A stretch of DNA of 64,000 bases, from contig NZ_CP059055.1 of assembly GCF_014058685.1 (NCBI RefSeq), positions 186,001 through 250,000 of the forward strand. The letters run 5' to 3'. A model generated the notes under the pieces. The model worked only from the letters and a program-made list of their open reading frames with translations, had not been told where the DNA came from and did not search any database. Origin of the DNA: Lactobacillus johnsonii (GTDB taxonomy: Bacteria; Bacillota; Bacilli; Lactobacillales; Lactobacillaceae). Positions 28,954 through 61,201 of this stretch are shown here, piece after piece. Within the stretch, counting starts at the first letter, position 1, and each line of letters starts with the position of its first letter. Both the position numbers and the translations under genes were made by a program.

Positions 28954-30063
28954 ATGGATAATAAGCCCCAAGAACCTATTCACTCAAGAGTTGAGTTGAA
29001 TAGAGAAAAACATAATAAGAAAAAAAAGGTCCACATTATTATTGGGATAGTTTTATTTTTGTTTTTAGGACTTGGAATTTATGCAAGTTCCGTTTATTTA
29101 AAAGCAAAAAATGCTTTTGATAAAACTTATGATCCTAAAACGGCCGTCAAGCAGGATAGCTTTTCTGGTAAAGAACCTTTTAATATTCTGTTGTTAGGGA
29201 CAGATACAGGAGCTTTCGGCAGAAAAGAAGTTCGTGGAAACTCGGATACCATGATTTTAGTGACCGTGAATCCGGCCAAAAAGAAACTTTCTTTAATGTC
29301 TATTCCGCGTGATACGATGGCCCGGATGATTGGTACGGACAATTTTAGTGTGCATAAAATTAATGCGGCTTATAATATTGGCGGAGCAAAGATGGCAATG
29401 CGGACCACAAGTAAAGTTCTCAATGTGCCAATAAAGTACTATATTTCGATGAATATGGGCGGCATGCGGAAGATTGTTGATGGTGTTGGTGGCGTTACGG
29501 TGACGCCACCATTGACCTTTACTTATGATGGCTATACCTTTACTAAAGGAAAAACAGTTCACTTAAATGGTAGTCAAGCTTTAGCTTACTCTAGAATGCG
29601 CTATGATGATCCTAAGGGAGATTACGGTCGTCAATTGAGACAGCGTGAGGTCATTATGTCCGTTTTAGAGCACGCACTATCCTTTAATACTCTCAAAAAT
29701 TTAGATTCAATTTTAGGTTCAGTGTCTACTAGCCTGAGGACAAACTTAACTTTTGATTCAATGGTTAAGATTAGTAAAAACTATCGTAAATGTACTAATA
29801 ATATGTCTAGTGACTACTTACATGGAGTAGGCGCAATGATTGGAGACGCTTCGTACCAAGTAATGTCTGATAGAGAATTACAAAGAACTTCAAATATTGT
29901 GAGAAATGATCTTGGGTTAGATTCGATGGATATTGATAATAATGAAACCTATCAAAATTCAATGAATTCTCAATTTGATTGGAACAGTGGTGACTCTAAT
30001 CAGGTATACTACATATATGATCCGTATACGGATGAATTATGGAATGGAGATAGGGCGTACTAA
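28954..30063 (+). CDS. LytR-CpsA-Psr (LCP) family wall-polymer ligase
   Basis: This 369-residue protein has a basic cytosolic tail, one membrane span (IIIGIVLFLFLGLGIYASSV) and an extracellular LCP domain: NILLLGTDTG, RGNSDTMILVTVNP, SIPRDTMARM, KINAAYNIGG and SRMRYDDPKGDYGRQLRQ (lipid-phosphate-binding Arg residues). LCP enzymes transfer teichoic acids or capsule from undecaprenyl pyrophosphate to peptidoglycan. I prefer ATG 28954 (AGAAAG upstream) over TTG 28939. The stop overlaps the plsY start by one base, so an LCP-plsY-LTA-synthase-like envelope operon is likely. Confidence 0.93.
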   Translation: MDNKPQEPIHSRVELNREKHNKKKKVHIIIGIVLFLFLGLGIYASSVYLKAKNAFDKTYDPKTAVKQDSFSGKEPFNILLLGTDTGAFGRKEVRGNSDTMILVTVNPAKKKLSLMSIPRDTMARMIGTDNFSVHKINAAYNIGGAKMAMRTTSKVLNVPIKYYISMNMGGMRKIVDGVGGVTVTPPLTFTYDGYTFTKGKTVHLNGSQALAYSRMRYDDPKGDYGRQLRQREVIMSVLEHALSFNTLKNLDSILGSVSTSLRTNLTFDSMVKISKNYRKCTNNMSSDYLHGVGAMIGDASYQVMSDRELQRTSNIVRNDLGLDSMDIDNNETYQNSMNSQFDWNSGDSNQVYYIYDPYTDELWNGDRAY

Positions 30064-30683
30064 TGGATGAATTTGTCTCGCTAGTAATAGGATATTTCCT
30101 CGGAAATATCCTTTTTGCTATGATTGTTACAAAAATATTTTTGCATAAAGATCCGACTAAATACGGTTCTGGTAATCCAGGAACGGCTAATGTCGGAGCA
30201 GTTTTTGGTAAAAAATGGGGTATTCTGACTTGCATTGGTGATTTAGCCAAAACTTTAGCTGCTTTGTTAATTGTTTACTTTATTTATCATGGTAATCGTC
30301 TAGATTTGTCTTTTGCAGGTCTTGGAGTGGTTTTAGGACATTCTTTCCCATTTTGGAATCATTTTAAGGGTGGTAAAGGAGTAGCAGTCACTGCTTTGTG
30401 GATTGTCTTTTTTGATTGGAGAGCGGGCTTAATTGCTTTATTAATTGGCCTATTTTTAGTCATTATTATGAAGAACCTTACTATACCACCGTTGGTCTAT
30501 ATGTTAGGATTCAGCATTTTTACTTGGATTAATTTTGGCTGGGAACAAGGGTTAATCTTTTTAATTGCTACCTTAATCATGATTTTTCAATTTAGAAAAG
30601 ATATTGTCGATTTCTTTACTGGTAAGGGTAAGCGTGTGGATGTATTAGTCACAATTAAGAAAAAGTTAGGGATATACAAATGA
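30063..30683 (+). CDS. plsY: Acyl-phosphate:glycerol-3-phosphate acyltransferase PlsY
   Basis: This 206-residue protein has five to six spans, with the PlsY motifs GSGNPGTANVGAVFGKKWG (with Ser/Gly-rich acyl-phosphate site) and GHSFPFWNHFKGGKGVA. It transfers the acyl group from acyl phosphate to sn-glycerol 3-phosphate, the first step of phosphatidic acid synthesis, in the membrane. The ATG overlaps the LCP stop (TAATG). The next gene's ATG overlaps this gene's end by four bases, so translation is coupled throughout. Confidence 0.95.
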   Translation: MDEFVSLVIGYFLGNILFAMIVTKIFLHKDPTKYGSGNPGTANVGAVFGKKWGILTCIGDLAKTLAALLIVYFIYHGNRLDLSFAGLGVVLGHSFPFWNHFKGGKGVAVTALWIVFFDWRAGLIALLIGLFLVIIMKNLTIPPLVYMLGFSIFTWINFGWEQGLIFLIATLIMIFQFRKDIVDFFTGKGKRVDVLVTIKKKLGIYK

Positions 30684-52745: not shown

Positions 52746-53471
52746 TTAAAAGCTATTTGTCTCTAAAACGACATAATTTCGTTCATTGTAGCGATTTCGG
52801 CTTGTTGAATATTCAACTGGTTGACCATTGTTTAACCAGACAATTTGTTCCAGCTCTAAGATTGGATCGTCTTTTTTGGCTTGAAGATACTGTTGATCCC
52901 AATCATCAGCCTTAGTAGCCTTAATTTTACGATAGGCAACGCCAAATTTAAGTTTCAAATTATGATGAAGATAATTATAGATAGAATTATGTAATATATC
53001 TTCATTTAAATCTGGAACTAAGTTAACTGGCATAAATGTATGTTCCAGAATCAGAGGTTTACCTTCAAGCCGTCTTAGACGACGAATATTGTAAACTGGA
53101 TCGCTAGATTTTAATTTTAAGTAATGTTGAACATCTTCATTTGGAAATTCAACATTAAACTCAATGATATCGCTAGTGACCTCATTAGATCCTAGTAGAT
53201 TAGCTAAACCACTAAAAGCATTTGCTGGTGAATCAAATTTATCTTGAATTGGAATTGGGCCTAAGACAAAAGTGCCGAGACCAGATTCTTTATAAACCAG
53301 ACCTTTTCTTTGTAGACCATCTAAGGCCTTCTTAACAGTTAAACGGCTTACGTGTAATTCTTCTGCAAGTGTTTTTTGGTCAGGAAGGGGAGTTTGAGGT
53401 TTATAGACTCCATCTTCAATTCTTTTTTGTAGAATTCGAGCAACTTTTAAGTACTTTGCTTCAGCAGTCAT
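52746..53471 (-). CDS. GntR-family regulator with UTRA domain (copy 2)
   Basis: This 241-residue protein has a winged helix (LHVSRLTVKKALDGLQRKGLVYKESGLGTFV) and a UTRA domain (RRLEGKPLILEHTFMPVNLVPD ... LELEQIVWLNNGQPVEYS). Its ATG overlaps the EIIA stop (TAATG), so it is made together with the PTS components it presumably controls. It is only distantly similar to copy 1 at 49958, suggesting different effectors or operators. Confidence 0.92.
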   Translation of the reverse strand: MTAEAKYLKVARILQKRIEDGVYKPQTPLPDQKTLAEELHVSRLTVKKALDGLQRKGLVYKESGLGTFVLGPIPIQDKFDSPANAFSGLANLLGSNEVTSDIIEFNVEFPNEDVQHYLKLKSSDPVYNIRRLRRLEGKPLILEHTFMPVNLVPDLNEDILHNSIYNYLHHNLKLKFGVAYRKIKATKADDWDQQYLQAKKDDPILELEQIVWLNNGQPVEYSTSRNRYNERNYVVLETNSF

Positions 53472-53797
53472 TACTTTTCAGCCATTTTTTTGTAAACAGC
53501 TACTACTTCCTTAGCTAAATCAATAAAAGTAATAGCTGTCATTAAGTGGTCTTGAGCATGAACCATGTAAAGGTCAACTTTTACATGGTTACCTTGTGCT
53601 TCTTGGGTCAACATATCAGTTTGAACATTGTGGGCATTTACTAAGCCTTCGTTTGCTTGCTTAATAAACTCATCAGCCTTTTCAAAGTCGCCTTTTTTAG
53701 CAGCTTGGATTGCTTGCATAGCAGCAGCCTTTGCATTACCAGCTTGCATAATAATTCCCATTACAACTTGCATGTTATCGCTATTTTCTTGTGCCAT
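53471..53797 (-). CDS. celA: PTS lactose/cellobiose-type EIIA
   Basis: ATG 53795-53797 follows TAGGAGA; the frame extends to 53848 but without a start signal and into a hairpin. The 108-residue all-helical protein has the active-site His in VDLYMVHAQDHLM (about residue 80). It takes phosphate from HPr and gives it to EIIB. It lies in the EIIB-82aa-EIIA-gntR operon. Only one EIIA of this class is visible, for two EIIC proteins. Confidence 0.93.
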   Translation of the reverse strand: MAQENSDNMQVVMGIIMQAGNAKAAAMQAIQAAKKGDFEKADEFIKQANEGLVNAHNVQTDMLTQEAQGNHVKVDLYMVHAQDHLMTAITFIDLAKEVVAVYKKMAEK

Positions 53798-53825
53798 AAT
53801 TTTAATTCTCCTAGATAGTATTTTT

Positions 53826-53878
53826 AAAATAAAAGATGCTCCTGACAATTATTTATTTTACTATGTCAGCAAGCATCT
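53826..53878 (-). terminator. Attenuator-like terminator upstream of EIIA
   Basis: Long interrupted stem (AGATGCT.CTGACA 53834-53847 with TGTCAGCAAGCATCT 53864-53878), then a T-rich tract on the minus strand. It is placed between the 82-residue gene and EIIA, so it could lower EIIA-GntR expression relative to EIIB. Confidence 0.7.
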
Positions 53879-53886
53879 CCCATAAA

Positions 53887-54135
53887 TTATTTTTGTTTTA
53901 ATTCTTGAATTCCTTGATCAATTGCTGCATCACAATCAATTGGTAATTGCAGTAGCATTTGTCCGTCTATCTCAAGACCTTTAGGGACTTGGATAATACC
54001 AGGAAAATGATAGCCATGATGAGCTTTAGTTTCATTATCTAAATAAATAGAAACTTGTCCATCTGCGCTGACTCCAATTTTAAAGTGATGACCGTTACGA
54101 TCAAATTCGTTAACAATTTTTACTTCGTCGTTCAT
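53887..54135 (-). CDS. Small PTS-associated protein, unknown (82 residues)
   Basis: I do not recognise a family. The sequence has a beta-rich start (VKIVNEFDRNGHHFKIGV, QVSIYLDNETKAHHGYHFPG) with several His and ends in a helix (CDAAIDQGIQELKQK). It starts four bases after the EIIB stop and its ribosome binding site lies inside the EIIB end, so it is translationally coupled to EIIB. Being placed between EIIB and EIIA suggests a role with this PTS (inference). Confidence 0.7.
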   Translation of the reverse strand: MNDEVKIVNEFDRNGHHFKIGVSADGQVSIYLDNETKAHHGYHFPGIIQVPKGLEIDGQMLLQLPIDCDAAIDQGIQELKQK

Positions 54136-54139
54136 TTGA

Positions 54140-54463
54140 CTATTTATCGCCCATTAATTCTTGAGCAGTTTCAAGAACATGCTCACCATTCATCATACCG
54201 TAGTCTTGCATGTTAATAACTGCTAATGGGATGCCTGCTTCATCAGTAATCTTTTTAACACTGTCTTCCATGTATTGAACTTGAGGTCCAAGCATTAATA
54301 CATCTGGGTGTTCCTTATCAATTTCATCTTGAATACCTGATGCTGCAGTAGCAAAGATCTTGTAGTCCTTACCTTTTTCTTTAGCTGCGTTTTGCATCTT
54401 TGATACTAAAAGTGAAGTTGACATACCTGCTGAACAAGCTAACATAATAGTTTTATCTGCCAT
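54140..54463 (-). CDS. PTS cellobiose-type EIIB
   Basis: This 107-residue protein has the P-loop LACSAGMSTSLLVSKM with phospho-Cys 10, typical of EIIB-cel. It passes phosphate from EIIA to the sugar at EIIC. First gene of a minus-strand operon with a strong promoter and a cre site; AGGAGA precedes the ATG. Confidence 0.94.
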   Translation of the reverse strand: MADKTIMLACSAGMSTSLLVSKMQNAAKEKGKDYKIFATAASGIQDEIDKEHPDVLMLGPQVQYMEDSVKKITDEAGIPLAVINMQDYGMMNGEHVLETAQELMGDK

Positions 54464-54609: not shown

Positions 54610-56055
54610 TTATTTACCTTCAGCTTCGTCTTTCTTAAGCGTTGCAGCTTCTCTTTGGACTAAGATCTTGTCGTACTTTCTAGCAAATGGCCAGTAGATC
54701 AAAGTTGAAATAACTAATGTACATGCTTGCCAAATTGCCATCTTCCAGCCACCAATTAGGAAACCGGAGATAACAGCTGGCATTGTCCACGGACAAGCAA
54801 AACCATTAAGAGGGGGAACAATACCAGTTCTAATTACGAAGTAAGTTGAGATAGCAACTACAACTGGTGTTAAGAAGAATGGAATTGCTAAGAATGGGTT
54901 CATAACAATAGGTAAACCGAATAGGAATGGTTCGTTAATGTTAAAGATACCAGGAACTAATTCAACTTTACCGATTGAACGTAATTGTGCTGATTTAGCA
55001 GCAATTAAAATAAAGATAATTAAACCAATAGTGATACCTGAACCAGTCAAGTTAATAAAGTTGTTGTAGAATTCGTTAGTAACAACGTGAGCACCATTGG
55101 CAATAGTTAATTTACCAGCTTTGTACAATTGAGCATTATCAAAAGAGTTAGCTTGAAGCATAGGGCCAGCAAGAGAACCAACAATTAAACCGCCGTGAAC
55201 ACCAAAGAACCAGAAGAATGGTACTAAGAATCCAATAGCGATGGCACCACCAAGTGAATCAGAGATACCTTGAAGTGGAATTTGAAGAGTTTGGTAGGTC
55301 CATTGTAAGAAGTCTGAACCAGTAGTTAACTTAAAGCCTGCGTAAATAAGCATAGTACCAATTAAGATAATTCCTGATGGAATCATAGCAGTAAATTGGT
55401 TAGAAACAGCAGCTGGAACTTGTTCAGGTAACTTAATAGTCCAGCCCTTTTTCATAATAGCTGAGTAAATCCAGCCGACTAACAAACCAACAATGATTGC
55501 GGCGATCATTCCGTCGCCACCAAGCCAGGTAATGTTGAAGACACCTGTAACTGGTGATTCTAGGAATGTTTGTAAAGCGTGTGGTAACTTATCAATATTT
55601 TCAGTTACTGCTTTTGCACTCATTCCACCGTCAATACCTTTAGCCATGGCATTCTTTAATGGACTGTCAATAGTTAAAGTTTGAAGCATTAAGAATGCAG
55701 CTAATGAAGTAAGACCGGGTGCTAGTGGTTCATAGCCTTCATTTTTAACATAAATATAGGCAATACCAACTGCTGCCCACATAGCCATGATACTAAAAGT
55801 AGTAGTGTAGGCTTGGTTGAAGAATGCACCCCAACCGGAAGCATTAATTGCATTAGCTACGGCTGGAATAGGAATATTTCCTAAAATTAAGAAAATAGAT
55901 CCAATAAGGATAAATGGTAAAGTATAAATCATACCATTTTGTAAGGCTTGGATAGCCTTAGTATTAACAAATTTCATTACTGGAGGCAGTATGTGTTTAT
56001 TAACAAACACATACTGCCTGATTGTTTTTGTTCGCTCATTATATTTCGTCTCCAT
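54610..56055 (-). CDS. PTS cellobiose-type EIIC permease, copy 2
   Basis: EIIC of the lactose/cellobiose family with about ten spans; FWFFGVHGGLIVG and ELVPGIFNINEPFLFGLPIVMNP are the substrate-site motifs. The 481-residue frame begins at ATG 56055 inside the end of the upstream GH1 gene, but has no clear ribosome binding site there. A GTG at 56008-56010 (codon 16), after AGGCAGTAT, or the ATG before KFVNTKAIQAL are alternatives. A perfect 15-bp palindrome covers codons 13-24. Cotranscribed with GH1 copy 3. Confidence 0.88.
   Translation of the reverse strand: METKYNERTKTIRQYVFVNKHILPPVMKFVNTKAIQALQNGMIYTLPFILIGSIFLILGNIPIPAVANAINASGWGAFFNQAYTTTFSIMAMWAAVGIAYIYVKNEGYEPLAPGLTSLAAFLMLQTLTIDSPLKNAMAKGIDGGMSAKAVTENIDKLPHALQTFLESPVTGVFNITWLGGDGMIAAIIVGLLVGWIYSAIMKKGWTIKLPEQVPAAVSNQFTAMIPSGIILIGTMLIYAGFKLTTGSDFLQWTYQTLQIPLQGISDSLGGAIAIGFLVPFFWFFGVHGGLIVGSLAGPMLQANSFDNAQLYKAGKLTIANGAHVVTNEFYNNFINLTGSGITIGLIIFILIAAKSAQLRSIGKVELVPGIFNINEPFLFGLPIVMNPFLAIPFFLTPVVVAISTYFVIRTGIVPPLNGFACPWTMPAVISGFLIGGWKMAIWQACTLVISTLIYWPFARKYDKILVQREAATLKKDEAEGK
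55984..56019. repeat. 36-bp perfect palindrome at the EIIC start
   Basis: Arms AGGCAGTATGTGTTT (55984-55998) and AAACACATACTGCCT (56005-56019) with a 6-base loop. On the plus strand it is followed by a T-rich tract, as in a terminator. On the minus strand it buries a possible AGG/GTG start. Confidence 0.85.
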
Positions 56056-57418
56056 TATCTTTTAATACTTTTTGGAACCAATAAAATGATTTCTTTGGAA
56101 CACGTTTTAAATCTTTTAAGTCATGATTTGAACGGTTGACGTAAACAGCACCATAGCGTTTTTCCATATCGGCATGTGAACTTGGAATATCGATTAATCC
56201 CCAACCTAGATAACCTAAAACTTTAGCTCCATCTAAGAACATGGCATCTTTCATAGCCTTAATATGTTCCTCGTGGTAAGCAATACGTTCATCATCTTCG
56301 ATCATATGCTCACCATCCCACGTTTCTTTTAAGCCGATTCCGTTTTCAATTGGGAAGATTGGAATCTTGTAATGGTTGTACATAGTGGTAATGGCGTTTC
56401 TAAAACCAAGTGGATCAATTGTCCAGCCCCAAGCATTTGTCTTGAGATACTTGTTTTCTACACCGCCATAATTCATGTAACGGTTAGGAGCAACGTCGGC
56501 AGGAATTTTATCAGCTGACACTGTCCAAGAAGAATAGTAACTAAAAGCTAAAAAGTCAGCCTTTGCTTTTTTCATTTCTTCTTTATCATCTTCAGTTATA
56601 TCCCAATTAATGTTGTGGTCTTTAGCGTATTGTAGTACTTCCGGTGAATAACCACGGCCAGTGTCTGCATCATAAATATTGAAATTCAAAAATTCTTGAA
56701 TTTGTTTTGCTGCCCAAACATCGGTAGATTTTGAAGTTTCAGGATAAATTTGTTGGAAGGCAAGCATTCCGCCGATTTTTACATCATCATATTTTTCATG
56801 GATGTAATTAGCCAATCGAATATGACTGATCATGGTGTGGTGAAAGATGGTATACATATCATCTAAAGTTTTGTCACCTTTTTCGTAACCAGAGATGTTA
56901 AATACTTCGTCTTGGAAGTAAAGATTATGTTCATTGAAAACAATCCAGTATTTAACTCGGTCTGAAAAATGATCAATCATCTTTTTGCCGAATCTAACAA
57001 AAGCATCAACAACATGGCGTGACATAAAACCGTTGTATTCTTTTGCTAGGTGTAGGGGCATGTCAAAGTGATAAAGACAAATCATCGGCTCGATTCCGCG
57101 ATCAAGCATGGCATCTACTAATTTGTCATAAAATTCAATTCCTTTAGGATTAAAATCCCCGTCTCCTTCGGGACAAACTCTTGACCATGAAATTTGAATA
57201 CGATACATATTCATATTCATTTCTTTCATTAGGTCTAAATCCTCATCATAACGATGGTATTCATCAATCGCGGTGTGCCAGTCTGTAGTATTTTCTGTAG
57301 CAGGTCGTACATCGTAAACTGATAAGCCTTTACCGTCTTCATCCCAGGCACCTTCAGTTTGCATACTTGAAACCGAATTGCCCCAGAAGAAGTCTTTAGG
57401 CATTTTGTGCTTATTCAT
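56039..57418 (-). CDS. 6-phospho-beta-glucosidase (GH1), copy 3
   Basis: This 459-residue GH1 enzyme has FFWGNSVSSMQTEGAW, IVFNEHNLYFQ (acid/base Glu; note His where Ile is common), FPIENGIGLKE (nucleophile Glu), and the ending RVPKKSFYWFQKVL. It is the most divergent of the three and resembles enzymes acting on phosphorylated aryl- or gentiobiose-type sugars (guess). I use ATG 57416-57418 with AGAGGAAA upstream; the TTG at 57436 overlaps a cre site. Its last bases overlap the EIIC frame. Confidence 0.93.
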   Translation of the reverse strand: MNKHKMPKDFFWGNSVSSMQTEGAWDEDGKGLSVYDVRPATENTTDWHTAIDEYHRYDEDLDLMKEMNMNMYRIQISWSRVCPEGDGDFNPKGIEFYDKLVDAMLDRGIEPMICLYHFDMPLHLAKEYNGFMSRHVVDAFVRFGKKMIDHFSDRVKYWIVFNEHNLYFQDEVFNISGYEKGDKTLDDMYTIFHHTMISHIRLANYIHEKYDDVKIGGMLAFQQIYPETSKSTDVWAAKQIQEFLNFNIYDADTGRGYSPEVLQYAKDHNINWDITEDDKEEMKKAKADFLAFSYYSSWTVSADKIPADVAPNRYMNYGGVENKYLKTNAWGWTIDPLGFRNAITTMYNHYKIPIFPIENGIGLKETWDGEHMIEDDERIAYHEEHIKAMKDAMFLDGAKVLGYLGWGLIDIPSSHADMEKRYGAVYVNRSNHDLKDLKRVPKKSFYWFQKVLKDNGDEI

Positions 57419-57431
57419 AATATTTCCTCTT

Positions 57432-57620: not shown

Positions 57621-58481
57621 TTAATGCTCTTTTTCAAAATCTGCAACCGCTCCACGCAAATTTGCTTCATTTTTTAATGTACATATATCCAAAATTGGTT
57701 TCACGGTCTCGATATCCATCTTATTTCTTAATTTAGCAATTTCATCGTCGAGTAGGGGAACTAATTCTGGATTTTGTGAAATTCCACCACCAATAATAAT
57801 TTTTTCAGGATCAAAACTGTGTTGAATATTAAAAATTGCTACAGCAAGAGCATGGAGGAGCTTTCCCCGTTCTTCTTGAGCAACTGGGTCATCAGTGTCA
57901 GCAAGTTCAAAAACAGTCTTACCATCAAAATCTTTTCCAGTCTTTTTATTGTAGCGCTTGGCCATGGTAACAGGTGAAGCTAGCTCACTTAACTGCTTAC
58001 CATCAATAATCATAAAACCAAATTCACCGCCATAGAGATGTGCACCATGCCAGATTTGATTGTTAATAATGATACTTCCCCCAACGCCGGTACCAATAAC
58101 TAAAAATGCCATACTACTGCATCCTTTAGCTGCTCCGTCAGCGATTTCGGCAAGAGCTGCGCAGTTTGCATCATTTTCGATACTTACTGGCAAACCAAAT
58201 CTTTTTTCTAATTCAGGTACGATCTTAAAGTTGTGAATATACGGTAGAGCACTTGCTCCTTCAATCACGCCAGTAGCTTTATTAACAGCACCAGGAGAAG
58301 AGATGGCTACACCATCAATGTTATGATTAGCTTTTATTTCGTTAACTGCATCAGTTAATTCCTCATAAAAAGTATCTAAATTATCCGGTGTATCAATAGT
58401 AAATGCCATCTTTAATTTTTGATTTATCCAGGTAGCGATTTTAATAGTTGTGCCGCCAATATCAATTGCGATTAAGTTCAT
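57621..58481 (-). CDS. ROK-family sugar kinase, zinc-motif-free (BglK-like)
   Basis: ATG 58479-58481 (AGAGAGG upstream) gives 286 residues; the longer frame runs over the promoter. The N-terminal ATP loop IDIGGTTIKIATW and GVAISSPGAVN, VIGTGVGGSIII and IIIGGGISQNP define ROK. The usual CxCGxxGCxE zinc motif is absent, as in beta-glucoside kinases (BglK) and some other members. In this setting, phosphorylation of glucose or beta-glucosides released in the cell is the likely role (inference). Confidence 0.88.
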   Translation of the reverse strand: MNLIAIDIGGTTIKIATWINQKLKMAFTIDTPDNLDTFYEELTDAVNEIKANHNIDGVAISSPGAVNKATGVIEGASALPYIHNFKIVPELEKRFGLPVSIENDANCAALAEIADGAAKGCSSMAFLVIGTGVGGSIIINNQIWHGAHLYGGEFGFMIIDGKQLSELASPVTMAKRYNKKTGKDFDGKTVFELADTDDPVAQEERGKLLHALAVAIFNIQHSFDPEKIIIGGGISQNPELVPLLDDEIAKLRNKMDIETVKPILDICTLKNEANLRGAVADFEKEH

Positions 58482-58512
58482 TAGTATTACCTCTCTTTTT
58501 ATCTTATCTTTC

Positions 58513-58541
58513 ATGTTAATCATCAACGTAAGCGCTGTCAA
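58513..58541 (-). promoter_or_regulatory. Promoter and cre-like site of the ROK gene
   Basis: -35 TTGACA (58536-58541), 17-base spacer, -10 TAACAT (58513-58518). TGACAGCGCTTACG (58527-58540) matches cre at 12 of 14. Confidence 0.5.
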
Positions 58542-58623
58542 TAAGTATATATTTTTCCTGAAGTATAACTAATAGTAAATGCTTTGCTATAATTGAAAGT
58601 AATTGATATAAAGGGGAAAATAC

Positions 58624-59286
58624 ATGAATACACCATCGTCCAGACAAGGAAATTTGACTAGATATATTGTTTATTTGGTCTTATATTTAATTGTAATTGG
58701 AGTTAAAAAATTAGCTCTGTTAAATGATCATGTAAATAAAATAGGGTACTTTTTTTTCTTACTTTGTGCCTTGTTTACTTTATATTTTTATATTCGACAA
58801 TTTAATCGAGAACAACGATTTTTTGAAAAAAAGCCCACGATGCCTTTATTAGCAGATTATGGATTTATAGTTGGTGTATCTATTCTGGTGATTTTAGGAC
58901 GTGTTTTTGTTTCCTATCTTCAAGCTAAAGGAAGCGTGCCCTTAATGTCTTTTCAAATAATTTATCAAAAGGCTGAATGTAATCTTTTATTTTGGTTTCT
59001 TATATTTTCGACTGGTCTTTTGCTACCAGCAATGCAAGTATATTTAACAACAGGTTTTTTCTTTAATTATGGGTTTAGAGCACAGAATATGGTTAGCGGT
59101 ATAGTTGGCATTATGTGCTCAGGCTTTTTCTATGGAATACTTAATTTTCAAACTTCATTTAGTTTATTTATTCTCAATAGTCTTTACGGGATGCTTTTTG
59201 CTTGGTCTTACTTATATTCACAAAGAATCATGATGCCAATTTATTTAGCAATCCTAAATGGAATTTTTATGGTGATTTTAGCCTAA
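58624..59286 (+). CDS. Degenerate CPBP-like (Abi family) membrane protein
   Basis: This 220-residue protein has about six to seven spans. The region LLLPAMQVYLTTGFFFNYGF, then CSGFFYGILNFQ and ILNGIFMVIL, lines up with the three CPBP motifs. The Glu-Glu-x3-Arg and Phe-x3-His residues are missing, while the last Asn is kept. If this alignment is right, the protein cannot be a protease. CPBP-like proteins in lactobacilli are often linked to bacteriocin immunity. AAGGGG lies upstream. Monocistronic, with a perfect terminator. Confidence 0.5.
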   Translation: MNTPSSRQGNLTRYIVYLVLYLIVIGVKKLALLNDHVNKIGYFFFLLCALFTLYFYIRQFNREQRFFEKKPTMPLLADYGFIVGVSILVILGRVFVSYLQAKGSVPLMSFQIIYQKAECNLLFWFLIFSTGLLLPAMQVYLTTGFFFNYGFRAQNMVSGIVGIMCSGFFYGILNFQTSFSLFILNSLYGMLFAWSYLYSQRIMMPIYLAILNGIFMVILA

Positions 59287-59287
59287 C

Positions 59288-59323
59288 AAAAAACGAGGAA
59301 CTTCATAAAGTTCCTCGTTTTTT
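59288..59323. terminator. Terminator, perfect 16-bp stem
   Basis: AAAAAACGAGGAACTT / AAGTTCCTCGTTTTTT. It serves the CPBP-like gene and, from the other side, the tRNA-Gly. Confidence 0.92.
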
Positions 59324-59329
59324 AATATA

Positions 59330-59400
59330 AGCGGATAGCGTGAATCGAACCCGCATCTTCAGCTTGGGAAGCTGACATTTTACCATTAAACTATACCCGC
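59330..59400 (-). tRNA. tRNA-Gly (anticodon CCC)
   Basis: On the minus strand acceptor GCGGGTA pairs with TATCCGC; anticodon stem TCAGC/GCTGA encloses TTCCCAA (anticodon CCC); T loop TTCGATT. CCA is not encoded. The D stem has a terminal G-U pair. Codon read is GGG, rare in this AT-rich genome. Confidence 0.92.
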
Positions 59401-59426
59401 ATAAGCAAAATGATTATATCATTTTG

Positions 59427-60038
59427 CTAACGATGTGGCAACTGATGTCTGTCTAGGTTATATTCTGACCGGTCAAGTAGAGAAGTAAAGTTTTGAAAGA
59501 GCCAACGACGTAATTCAGATGGCTTTAACACTAAGGGCATTCTTTCATGAACTGGAAGCACAGTATCATTAGAAGCAGTAGTGACCATTGAAAAGTCATC
59601 CCCTTTATAAATACCAGCAATTAATGCCATCGGTTCATCTTTTGCAGTAAAAGATGAGTGTTCATGATAGGTTTTGTTATTTGATGCAAGGTAAGTTTGC
59701 TTACTACTTTCCCAGAATTCATTAGATAAAATAATGCACCGCTGGCGAGCAAATGAATCATCCCACATTGATGGTTTTTCTTCATAAAAACGCTCTACCC
59801 GAGCATTATAAATTACTCGATTCTTTTTAAATGGACTTGGATAGCCCCATTTCTTTTCAACTAACTTTAGTTCGTCATCGCTATATAGCATAACTAAAGA
59901 TGGAGATTTAGGATAAATTTGAGTAACAGATTCAAATTTGTCTTCAATGTTTTTTGATACAACTAGTGGTAATTCTAAATCAGTTTTTAGATATGTCTTA
60001 ATTTCTTTAAGCGATGGCATTTCATAATGACTACACAT
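59427..60038 (-). CDS. SRAP-family protein (YedK/HMCES-like, SOS response-associated)
   Basis: This 203-residue protein has the catalytic Cys directly after Met (MCSHYEMP), the YNARVE motif, RCIILSNEFWES (Glu of the active site) and VHERMPLVL (His). Family members form a thiazolidine cross-link with abasic sites in single-stranded DNA and so protect replication forks. Mature Cys2 needs Met removal. The family is often about 220-230 residues; the shorter length fits lactobacillar forms. Monocistronic beside tRNA-Gly. Confidence 0.92.
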   Translation of the reverse strand: MCSHYEMPSLKEIKTYLKTDLELPLVVSKNIEDKFESVTQIYPKSPSLVMLYSDDELKLVEKKWGYPSPFKKNRVIYNARVERFYEEKPSMWDDSFARQRCIILSNEFWESSKQTYLASNNKTYHEHSSFTAKDEPMALIAGIYKGDDFSMVTTASNDTVLPVHERMPLVLKPSELRRWLFQNFTSLLDRSEYNLDRHQLPHR

Positions 60039-60172
60039 CTCTATTCATCCTTTCTTTATGTAATTTTTCTCTCAATTTAATTTTAGCAACTTTTAGGTAA
60101 GTTTAAACAAATAAGGATTTTTGCTAGAATTGGAGGTAAAGCTAAAGATTACAGATATATTGGAGAAAAAAT

Positions 60173-61201
60173 ATGACAAAGGAAATTTTATTAACTGGAG
60201 ATAGACCAACCGGAAAACTTCATATTGGTCACTATATTGGCTCCTTAAAAAACCGTGTAAAATTACAAAATGAAGGTAAATATGACCCTTATATTATGAT
60301 TGCGGACACTCAAGCACTAACTGATAATGCTAGAGATCCTGAAAAAATTAAGAATAGCTTAATTCAAGTAGCTTTGGACTACTTAGCTGTTGGACTAGAT
60401 CCTGAAAAGTCTACTATCTATGTGCAATCACAAATCCCTGCTCTTTTTGAATTAACTGCTTATTACATGGATTTGGTAACAGTTGCACGTCTAGAAAGAA
60501 ATCCAACTGTTAAAACTGAAATTAAGCAAAAGAATTTTAAAGATTCAATTCCAGTTGGTTTCTTAAACTACCCAGTTTCTCAGGCAGCAGACATTACTGC
60601 TTTTAAAGCAACAATAATTCCAGTTGGGGATGATCAAGAACCAATGCTTGAACAAACTAGAGAAATTGTTCGTACTTTTAATAGAGTTTATAACACTGAT
60701 ATTTTAGTTGAACCAAAGGGTTACTTCCCACCAAAGGGACAAGGTAGACTTCCAGGTTTAGATGGAAATGCAAAAATGTCTAAATCACTTGGAAATGCAA
60801 TTTACTTGTCCGATGATGCAAAGACTGTACAAAAGAAAGTTATGTCAATGTACACGGATCCAAACCATATTCATGTTGAAGATCCTGGTCAAGTAGAGGG
60901 TAATACTGTCTTTACTTATCTTGATGTTTTTGCACCAGATAAAGATAAGGTGGCTGAACTTAAGGAACAATATCAAAAAGGTGGCTTAGGGGACGTTAAA
61001 ATTAAACGCTACTTGAATAAGGTTCTTGAAGAAGAACTTGGGCCAATTAGAGAGCGTAGAGAGAAGTTTGCTCAAGATCCAGATGCTGTATACGAAATGT
61101 TACTAGAGGGATCAAAGAAGGCAAATGAAGTTGCTAACCAAACTTTACAAGAAGTTAGAGAAGCAATTGGTTTAAATTATTTTGATAGGTTAAATAAATA
61201 A
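60173..61201 (+). CDS. trpS: Tryptophanyl-tRNA synthetase
   Basis: This 342-residue class I synthetase has [13 protein letters not shown] at the N-terminus (HIGH) and AKMSKSLGN (KMSKS) at about residue 200, the normal length. TTGGAG lies upstream. I find no T-box in the short leader. The dCMP deaminase gene follows after 19 bases. Confidence 0.97.

Follow-up and report, generated by a model that had tools for sequence, protein, structure and literature searches.

The window analysed here is a stretch of 64,000 nucleotides from Lactobacillus johnsonii, and its minus strand carries an open frame for a GH1 6-phospho-beta-glucosidase (bgl, 56039..57421), followed downstream by EIIC of a phosphotransferase system (PTS), an open frame for a PTS lactose/cellobiose EIIB (54140..54463) and one for a PTS EIIA of the lactose family (53471..53797), whose start was hand-placed within the ORF 53471-53848. 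The intact body of EIIC comprises 455 codons plus the stop (54610..55977, minus strand), begins at ATG 55977 and includes the Pfam PTS_EIIC match in full (body residues 14-371). It belongs to the EIIC family, with 346.7 bits for TIGR00410 (cut-off 236) and a PF02378 score of 207 versus 30.7. Between EIIB and EIIA (53887-54135, minus strand) there is a frame for an 82-residue protein that matched nothing in NCBIfam and, in Pfam, DUF7686 only, below the threshold (E 0.055); a frame resembling it was seen by eye downstream of EIIC in L017 and L020. Orthologs of EIIC were recovered from a search of 75 Lactobacillus genomes, and one of them, L009, comes from what we take to be L. gasseri ATCC 33323. 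Both published primers for the IIC gene of PTS 5 (PMC2848229) are present in L009 and L008, and because L009 contains both, the L. gasseri ATCC 33323 ortholog is PTS 5 as that system is presented in the available text of the primer study, where cellobiose is reported not to induce PTS 5.

An inverted repeat of 36 nt lies at 55984..56019, inside the 5' region of EIIC, with perfect arms of 15 bp and a spacer of 6 nt, and its coding (minus) strand reads AGGCAGTATGTGTTTGTTAATAAACACATACTGCCT. A sequence-only reading of this DNA had described a perfect palindrome at this place. The 36-bp repeat and its 15-bp perfect stem are real, whereas the end-to-end palindrome is not perfect, since the repeat read as 18-nt arms is 94% complementary. 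As that reading had also stated, the repeat encodes RQYVFVNKHILP in the frame beginning at 56055 and is followed by GATTGTTTTTG on the plus strand. The coding-strand RNA of the 36-nt repeat folds at -23.0 kcal/mol, with a z of -8.2 relative to 200 shuffles, and 20 sequences of 64 kb generated by a first-order Markov model reached arms of at most 12 (loops of at most 8). The window contains four further repeats with arms of 15-16, all of them intergenic when compared by eye with ORFs of at least 100 aa, and three of the four run from A-rich to T-rich in a terminator-like manner. Among the listed repeats with arms of at least 12, the one at 55984-56019 alone falls inside an ORF of at least 100 aa. 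An intrinsic terminator on the coding strand is not supported, as CCAGTAATGAAATTTG and not a U tract stands directly after the stem.

The 8 nearest orthologs begin to align with the 56055 frame at its residue 14 or 15, a few codons at most into the palindrome. The coding strand reads ATGAGCGAACAAAAACAATCAGGC-TTTAGT-GTGTTTGTTAATAAACACATACTGCCT in L005 (genome G024) and ATGAGCGAACAAAAACAATCAGGC-AGTAT-GTGTTTGTTAATAAACACATACTGCCT in the window, the rest of the 36-nt element being identical in the two, so that six letters are replaced by five. The new letters AGTAT lie in the 5' arm and correspond exactly, as reverse complement, to ATACT of the opposite arm. The unmutated left arm was found in all of the nearest genomes (G024, G069, G071, G034, G014, G070, G021 and G023), as TTTAGT except for GTTAGT in G034 (L008). 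Over 57,365 aligned columns the window and G024 are 94.5% identical and differ in 211 clusters of at least 3 differences; the cluster at the palindrome, with 3 differences inside 5 columns, matches a reverse complement in its vicinity over 15 nt, more than any of the others, and the runner-up (12 nt) is a self-complementary string. An imperfect hairpin is already present in L005, at -12.8 kcal/mol compared with the value given above for the window, with stems of 4 bp and 9 bp and an unequal internal loop, and other near relatives fold alike. The palindrome itself was absent from 88 distinct related sequences, in which the perfect arms at this site never exceed 11. The variant is known from one genome; G059, which is labelled as the same species and is 92% complete, gave no match at the site. 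Over window positions 57700-61200, G059 is 72% identical and G023, labelled as the same genus, is 99% identical, and these kinship labels look odd.

PMC7202029 describes, in its accessible text, how a quasipalindrome mutation arises: a stalled polymerase uses the nascent strand as its template at an imperfect inverted repeat before it goes back, and the repeat ends up more perfect. What such a mutation should leave behind was found here: an imperfect repeat in the ancestor, derived letters that copy the opposite arm exactly (15 nt), and clustered changes on one branch, with 8 of the 8 nearest genomes ancestral. The change is best explained as this known kind of mutation, here as a natural variant in a bacterial chromosome, and we consider it highly probable that the palindrome is the footprint of a single replication template switch at a pre-existing imperfect inverted repeat, accompanied by a frameshift. 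The ancestor would have had an outer stem of 4 bp and an inner stem of 9 bp with the unequal internal loop between them. We infer that the nascent strand was elongated with its own opposite arm as template before switching back, which would turn TTTAG into AGTA (equivalently, TTTAGT into AGTAT) and make the arms complementary over 15 pairs. The net change of -1 base puts the ancestral start out of frame with EIIC. A sequencing or assembly artefact would be in keeping with a variant that occurs in one genome only and breaks its gene, but the genome is a single contig with 99.99% completeness and a consensus error that exactly copies the opposite arm would be unusual, which makes this explanation very unlikely.

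The earlier suggestion of a small inserted element met with a different pattern. A long inverted repeat within a gene is what a mobile palindromic repeat (REP, MITE or similar) would produce, yet the relatives show 6 nt replaced by 5, a net loss of one base and no insertion. The search for the palindrome elsewhere in the genome, which the sequence-only reading had recommended as a check, found no second copy in 1.95 Mb with up to 2 mismatches; besides its two arms, the arm sequence matches the genome once, with 2 mismatches. The exact palindrome pattern had no match in viral contigs either. A plasmid search returned 8 records with at most 37% query cover and 69-76% identity, and the annotated ones are glycoside hydrolase or 6-phospho-beta-glucosidase. 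The replacement pattern in relatives, together with the lack of a second genome copy, refutes a mobile repeat in practice, and we give it practically no weight. The palindrome most likely is a scar of template switching rather than a switch built for regulation.

The ancestral start of EIIC is the ATG at 56037..56039 (minus strand), which overlaps the bgl stop as TAATG, has GGAG ten bases upstream and aligns with the starts of the orthologs. The start is an ATG 20-22 codons ahead of the codon for M27 in 25 of 28 Lactobacillus rows, and a TAATG overlapping the GH1 stop with GGAG upstream was found in 24 of the 27 rows with a located start, the deviating rows being L025, L026 and L031. The sequence-only reading had chosen the long frame from 56055 and had suggested that a GTG hidden in the stem may be the actual start; the orthologs point to ATG 56039 instead of the former and speak against the latter as the ancestral arrangement. 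In the window, the frame from the ancestral start (55977..56039, minus strand) now reads MSEQKQSGSMCLLINTYCLQ followed by a stop, giving 20 residues before TAA at 55979-55977, and this new stop overlaps the ATG at 55977-55975 as TAATG. The upstream ATG at 56053..56055 (minus strand) sits in the last codons of bgl with no clear Shine-Dalgarno sequence before it by eye, and it is in frame with EIIC because of the one-base loss; the long frame from 56055 is therefore a by-product of the shift and not the ancestral frame. That reading had also named an outcome that would tell against it, namely homologs with the same amino acids but no palindrome and translation starting at 56055. In the relatives the palindrome is indeed missing, but so are the amino acids RQY, and the ancestral start is not at 56055.

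Ribosomes starting at 56039 would give the 20-residue peptide and terminate at the new TAA. Because this stop overlaps ATG 55977, part of the EIIC body could be produced there by termination-reinitiation, and such a restart would drop about 4 residues of the TIGR00410 match, since the match starts at residue 23 of the long frame. Another part of EIIC could come from ribosomes starting at ATG 56055. The predicted accessibility is 0.61 at ATG 56055, 0.43 at 56039 and 0.30 at 55977, with the ancestral start equal in the window and L005 (0.43 each). As the predicted fold leaves ATG 56055 more accessible than the other two starts, its frame may be expressed to some extent. Judged from the sequence, the strain most likely makes much less EIIC of this PTS, or none. 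No canonical X XXY YYZ heptamer was seen by eye in the codons at the five A's that precede the stem, and programmed -1 frameshifting there was rejected for this reason.

Compared with L005, EIIC of the window has 36 synonymous and 6 nonsynonymous changes. Within the EIIC body, the window departs once from codons shared by four relatives, by a synonymous change that it alone has. For this reason the frameshifting event looks recent, and so either the break is young or the EIIC body is still used; the intact body of 455 codons fits a recent mutation and a protein still in use equally. Broken EIIC genes were found in 3 of the 28 Lactobacillus rows L005-L032, the window not counted. L. kitasatonis (L041) has a separate one-base loss a few codons downstream that also ends at TAATG: near position 4012 of L041, the new stop forms TAATG with the ATG that begins MKFVNTKA, after which the frame stays open for 449 codons. 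L029, which matches L. kefiranofaciens L072, has a stop after 69 codons. In the type strain L. johnsonii ATCC 33200 (G023), EIIC lacks 36, 1, 15, 35 and 1 nt relative to L005, so that from its sequence the gene appears to have been broken independently, as a parallel loss. The 36-nt gap in this gene (L095) is flanked by the direct repeat TATTGAC. Draft-genome errors could be behind the single-base breaks.

A translational gate or processing site had also been proposed for the palindrome. The perfect palindrome is not shared by relatives, but a tendency to form a hairpin at this place is seen repeatedly across the genus and goes beyond what the protein sequence demands. The tested stretch was the 48 nt ahead of the M27 codon, and the null was a set of synonymous recodings drawn with each gene's own codon usage. 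The 25 Lactobacillus orthologs, which include two pairs identical in the 48-nt stretch, had a mean z of -3.44, and 17 of them ranked 1/100 or better; in the EIIC body, used as a control, z averaged -0.53 and no mean fell below -1.69. The 221 positions along bgl (22 genes) and EIIC (25 genes) that served as further controls had mean z values down to -1.88 and no lower. In other genera, genes with a long N-terminus had a mean z of -0.68 (31 genes), and in the short N-terminus group (27 genes) the stretch was present in only 6, with a mean z of -0.83. By strand, the z was -3.34 for the coding and -1.77 for the antisense sequence, whereas the mean energy was alike on both (sense -10.06, antisense -9.96), the sense strand being more stable in 15 of 25. 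A first pass with the codon usage of the window gave a mean z of -2.07, with 18 of 30 distinct sequences from mixed genera below -1.5. All folding tests were run without the frameshifted L018, and the main sets (synonymous recoding, strand, control, register and stricter null) without L031 (62% identity, shorter N-terminus), L032 (broken, its 48 nt the same as in L010) and L033 (45% identity, shorter N-terminus); the set of other genera was run without L071, L074, L076 and the duplicates L070 and L072.

Under a stricter null that draws on the codons of other clades at the same site, the mean z was -1.28 and 9 of 23 were within 5%; this test and the register test used 23 distinct sequences, as L007 and L028 repeat L006 and L027. 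The clade means differ from 0 (17 clades, p 0.006), and among 51 windows none has a lower clade mean than the 48-nt stretch, at -0.97; the windows of the body have a mean of -0.24, an sd of 0.25 and a minimum of -0.71. When counted by species, 8 of 23 were within 5% in the stretch versus at most 7 in body windows, and the johnsonii clade (-1.1) and the gasseri clade (-0.66) were both weak. Stability beyond synonymous recodings, as expected of a conserved cis-acting RNA, was thus found and is weaker under the stricter null, whereas a covarying consensus was not found. RNAalifold found no consensus pairs in 20 of the 23 sequences, from which L012, L015 and L023 (sense hairpin absent or weak) had been left out; this choice favours a hairpin, and the consensus was nevertheless not found. 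The commonest register pairs 75.4% of cells versus at most 67.1% in slid versions, and its covariation was no better than in shuffles (238 of 500 as high). Stem registers vary between clades, and the hairpin is missing in L012, L015 and L017 and weak in L023 and L024. A search of Rfam with 55500-56600 gave four matches, each far under the gathering score, and thus no known RNA family. Since a z of -4 is also reached within the first codons of 6 of 55 window genes, it is the recurrence across species alone that stands out. The lowest z of the 55 genes, -7.0, was seen at 30063-30683 (plus strand), in a stretch starting at about codon 4. We read the hairpin tendency in Lactobacillus as real but modest, arising from selection or from a mutation process, and the genus-wide hairpin as a lead rather than a proven element. 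Our literature search, which had most subscription journals outside its coverage, found no publication on this EIIC hairpin.

Two readings of this tendency are compatible with a template switch in the window and with each other. A cis-acting mRNA hairpin could tune EIIC translation or mRNA stability after the start codon across Lactobacillus, its form in the window being strengthened and EIIC being made via TAATG 55977 or ATG 56055. The low mean z in the 25 orthologs relative to the body, the control positions that never reach it, the lower z on the coding strand and the lowest clade mean of the 51 windows under the stricter null argue for such a role. It is opposed by the missing consensus structure and covariation, the registers that vary by clade, the rows with a weak hairpin or none, the equal mean energy of the two strands, the weak values in johnsonii and gasseri and the small excess over the body under the stricter null, the near lack of signal in long-N-terminus genes of other genera, the single window genes that reach z -4, and a frameshift that damages the gene, which is unexpected of a tuned element. 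We hold a cis-acting role to be possible, if tentatively so, and the idea of a gate survives in this weaker form only, as a recurrent hairpin of the genus that lacks covariation support. Alternatively, recurrent template switching without any function might keep the hairpin arms matched genus-wide, the window being the newest round. One such event is visible at the site, the process is described in the available text of PMC8794818 as able to create and maintain hairpins, and shifting registers without fixed-register covariation fit a mutational origin. On the other hand, a single event was identified and the protein is largely conserved over the stem, whereas a template switch tends to alter several adjacent codons together; we find this account rather doubtful. 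It is unlikely, though conceivable, that the two are combined in a genus-wide hairpin selected for its presence and not for its sequence or register. It would serve the membrane transporter as a speed bump or as a stem for processing, template switching would build it and renew it, and in the window reinitiation at TAATG would rescue the protein. An intrinsic terminator acting antisense, on the plus strand, would accord with a terminator scan that calls the 15-pair stem followed by GATTGTTTTT. However, the scan called 3 sites in total versus 3.0 expected in shuffles, and the T tract is what A-rich Lys/Gln codons give on the complementary strand, and it also occurs in L012, which has no sense hairpin. 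The antisense fold is also less unusual relative to synonymous recodings, though equally stable on average. Taken together, these points leave an antisense terminator extremely improbable.

The template switch at EIIC offers a clean natural example in which an apparent single copying error both perfects a hairpin and breaks a gene. It also carries a warning, since an intact-looking long frame can mask a frameshift when an upstream ATG happens to be in frame, and the recurrent hairpin at the EIIC start across the genus is a place to ask whether selection or mutation keeps stems matched. As regards the transporter, EIIC of the window is orthologous to PTS 5 of L. gasseri ATCC 33323 and of the same lactose/cellobiose family, as far as the accessible part of PMC2848229 describes that system, and unlike the window gene, the PTS 5 IIC gene is intact in L009. 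As regards the mutation, the event resembles the quasipalindrome mutations that the available text of PMC7202029 presents (the Ripley model, the E. coli thyA hotspot and lacZ reporters), in that a repeat is perfected in one step by copying of the opposite arm. It differs from those systems in being a natural variant of one genome, with a mechanism deduced from sequence. Template switching in RNA hairpins, in the portion of PMC8794818 at hand, likewise perfects a stem in one multi-base event where an imperfect hairpin stood; in contrast to those RNA genes, the window case lies in a bacterial protein gene and breaks its frame. The homogenization of inverted-repeat arms in yeast, as set out in the accessible sections of PMC8604942, is similar in that template switching takes place between arms inside protein genes, but the yeast cases are reported as nonsynonymous replacements whereas the window case is a frameshift.
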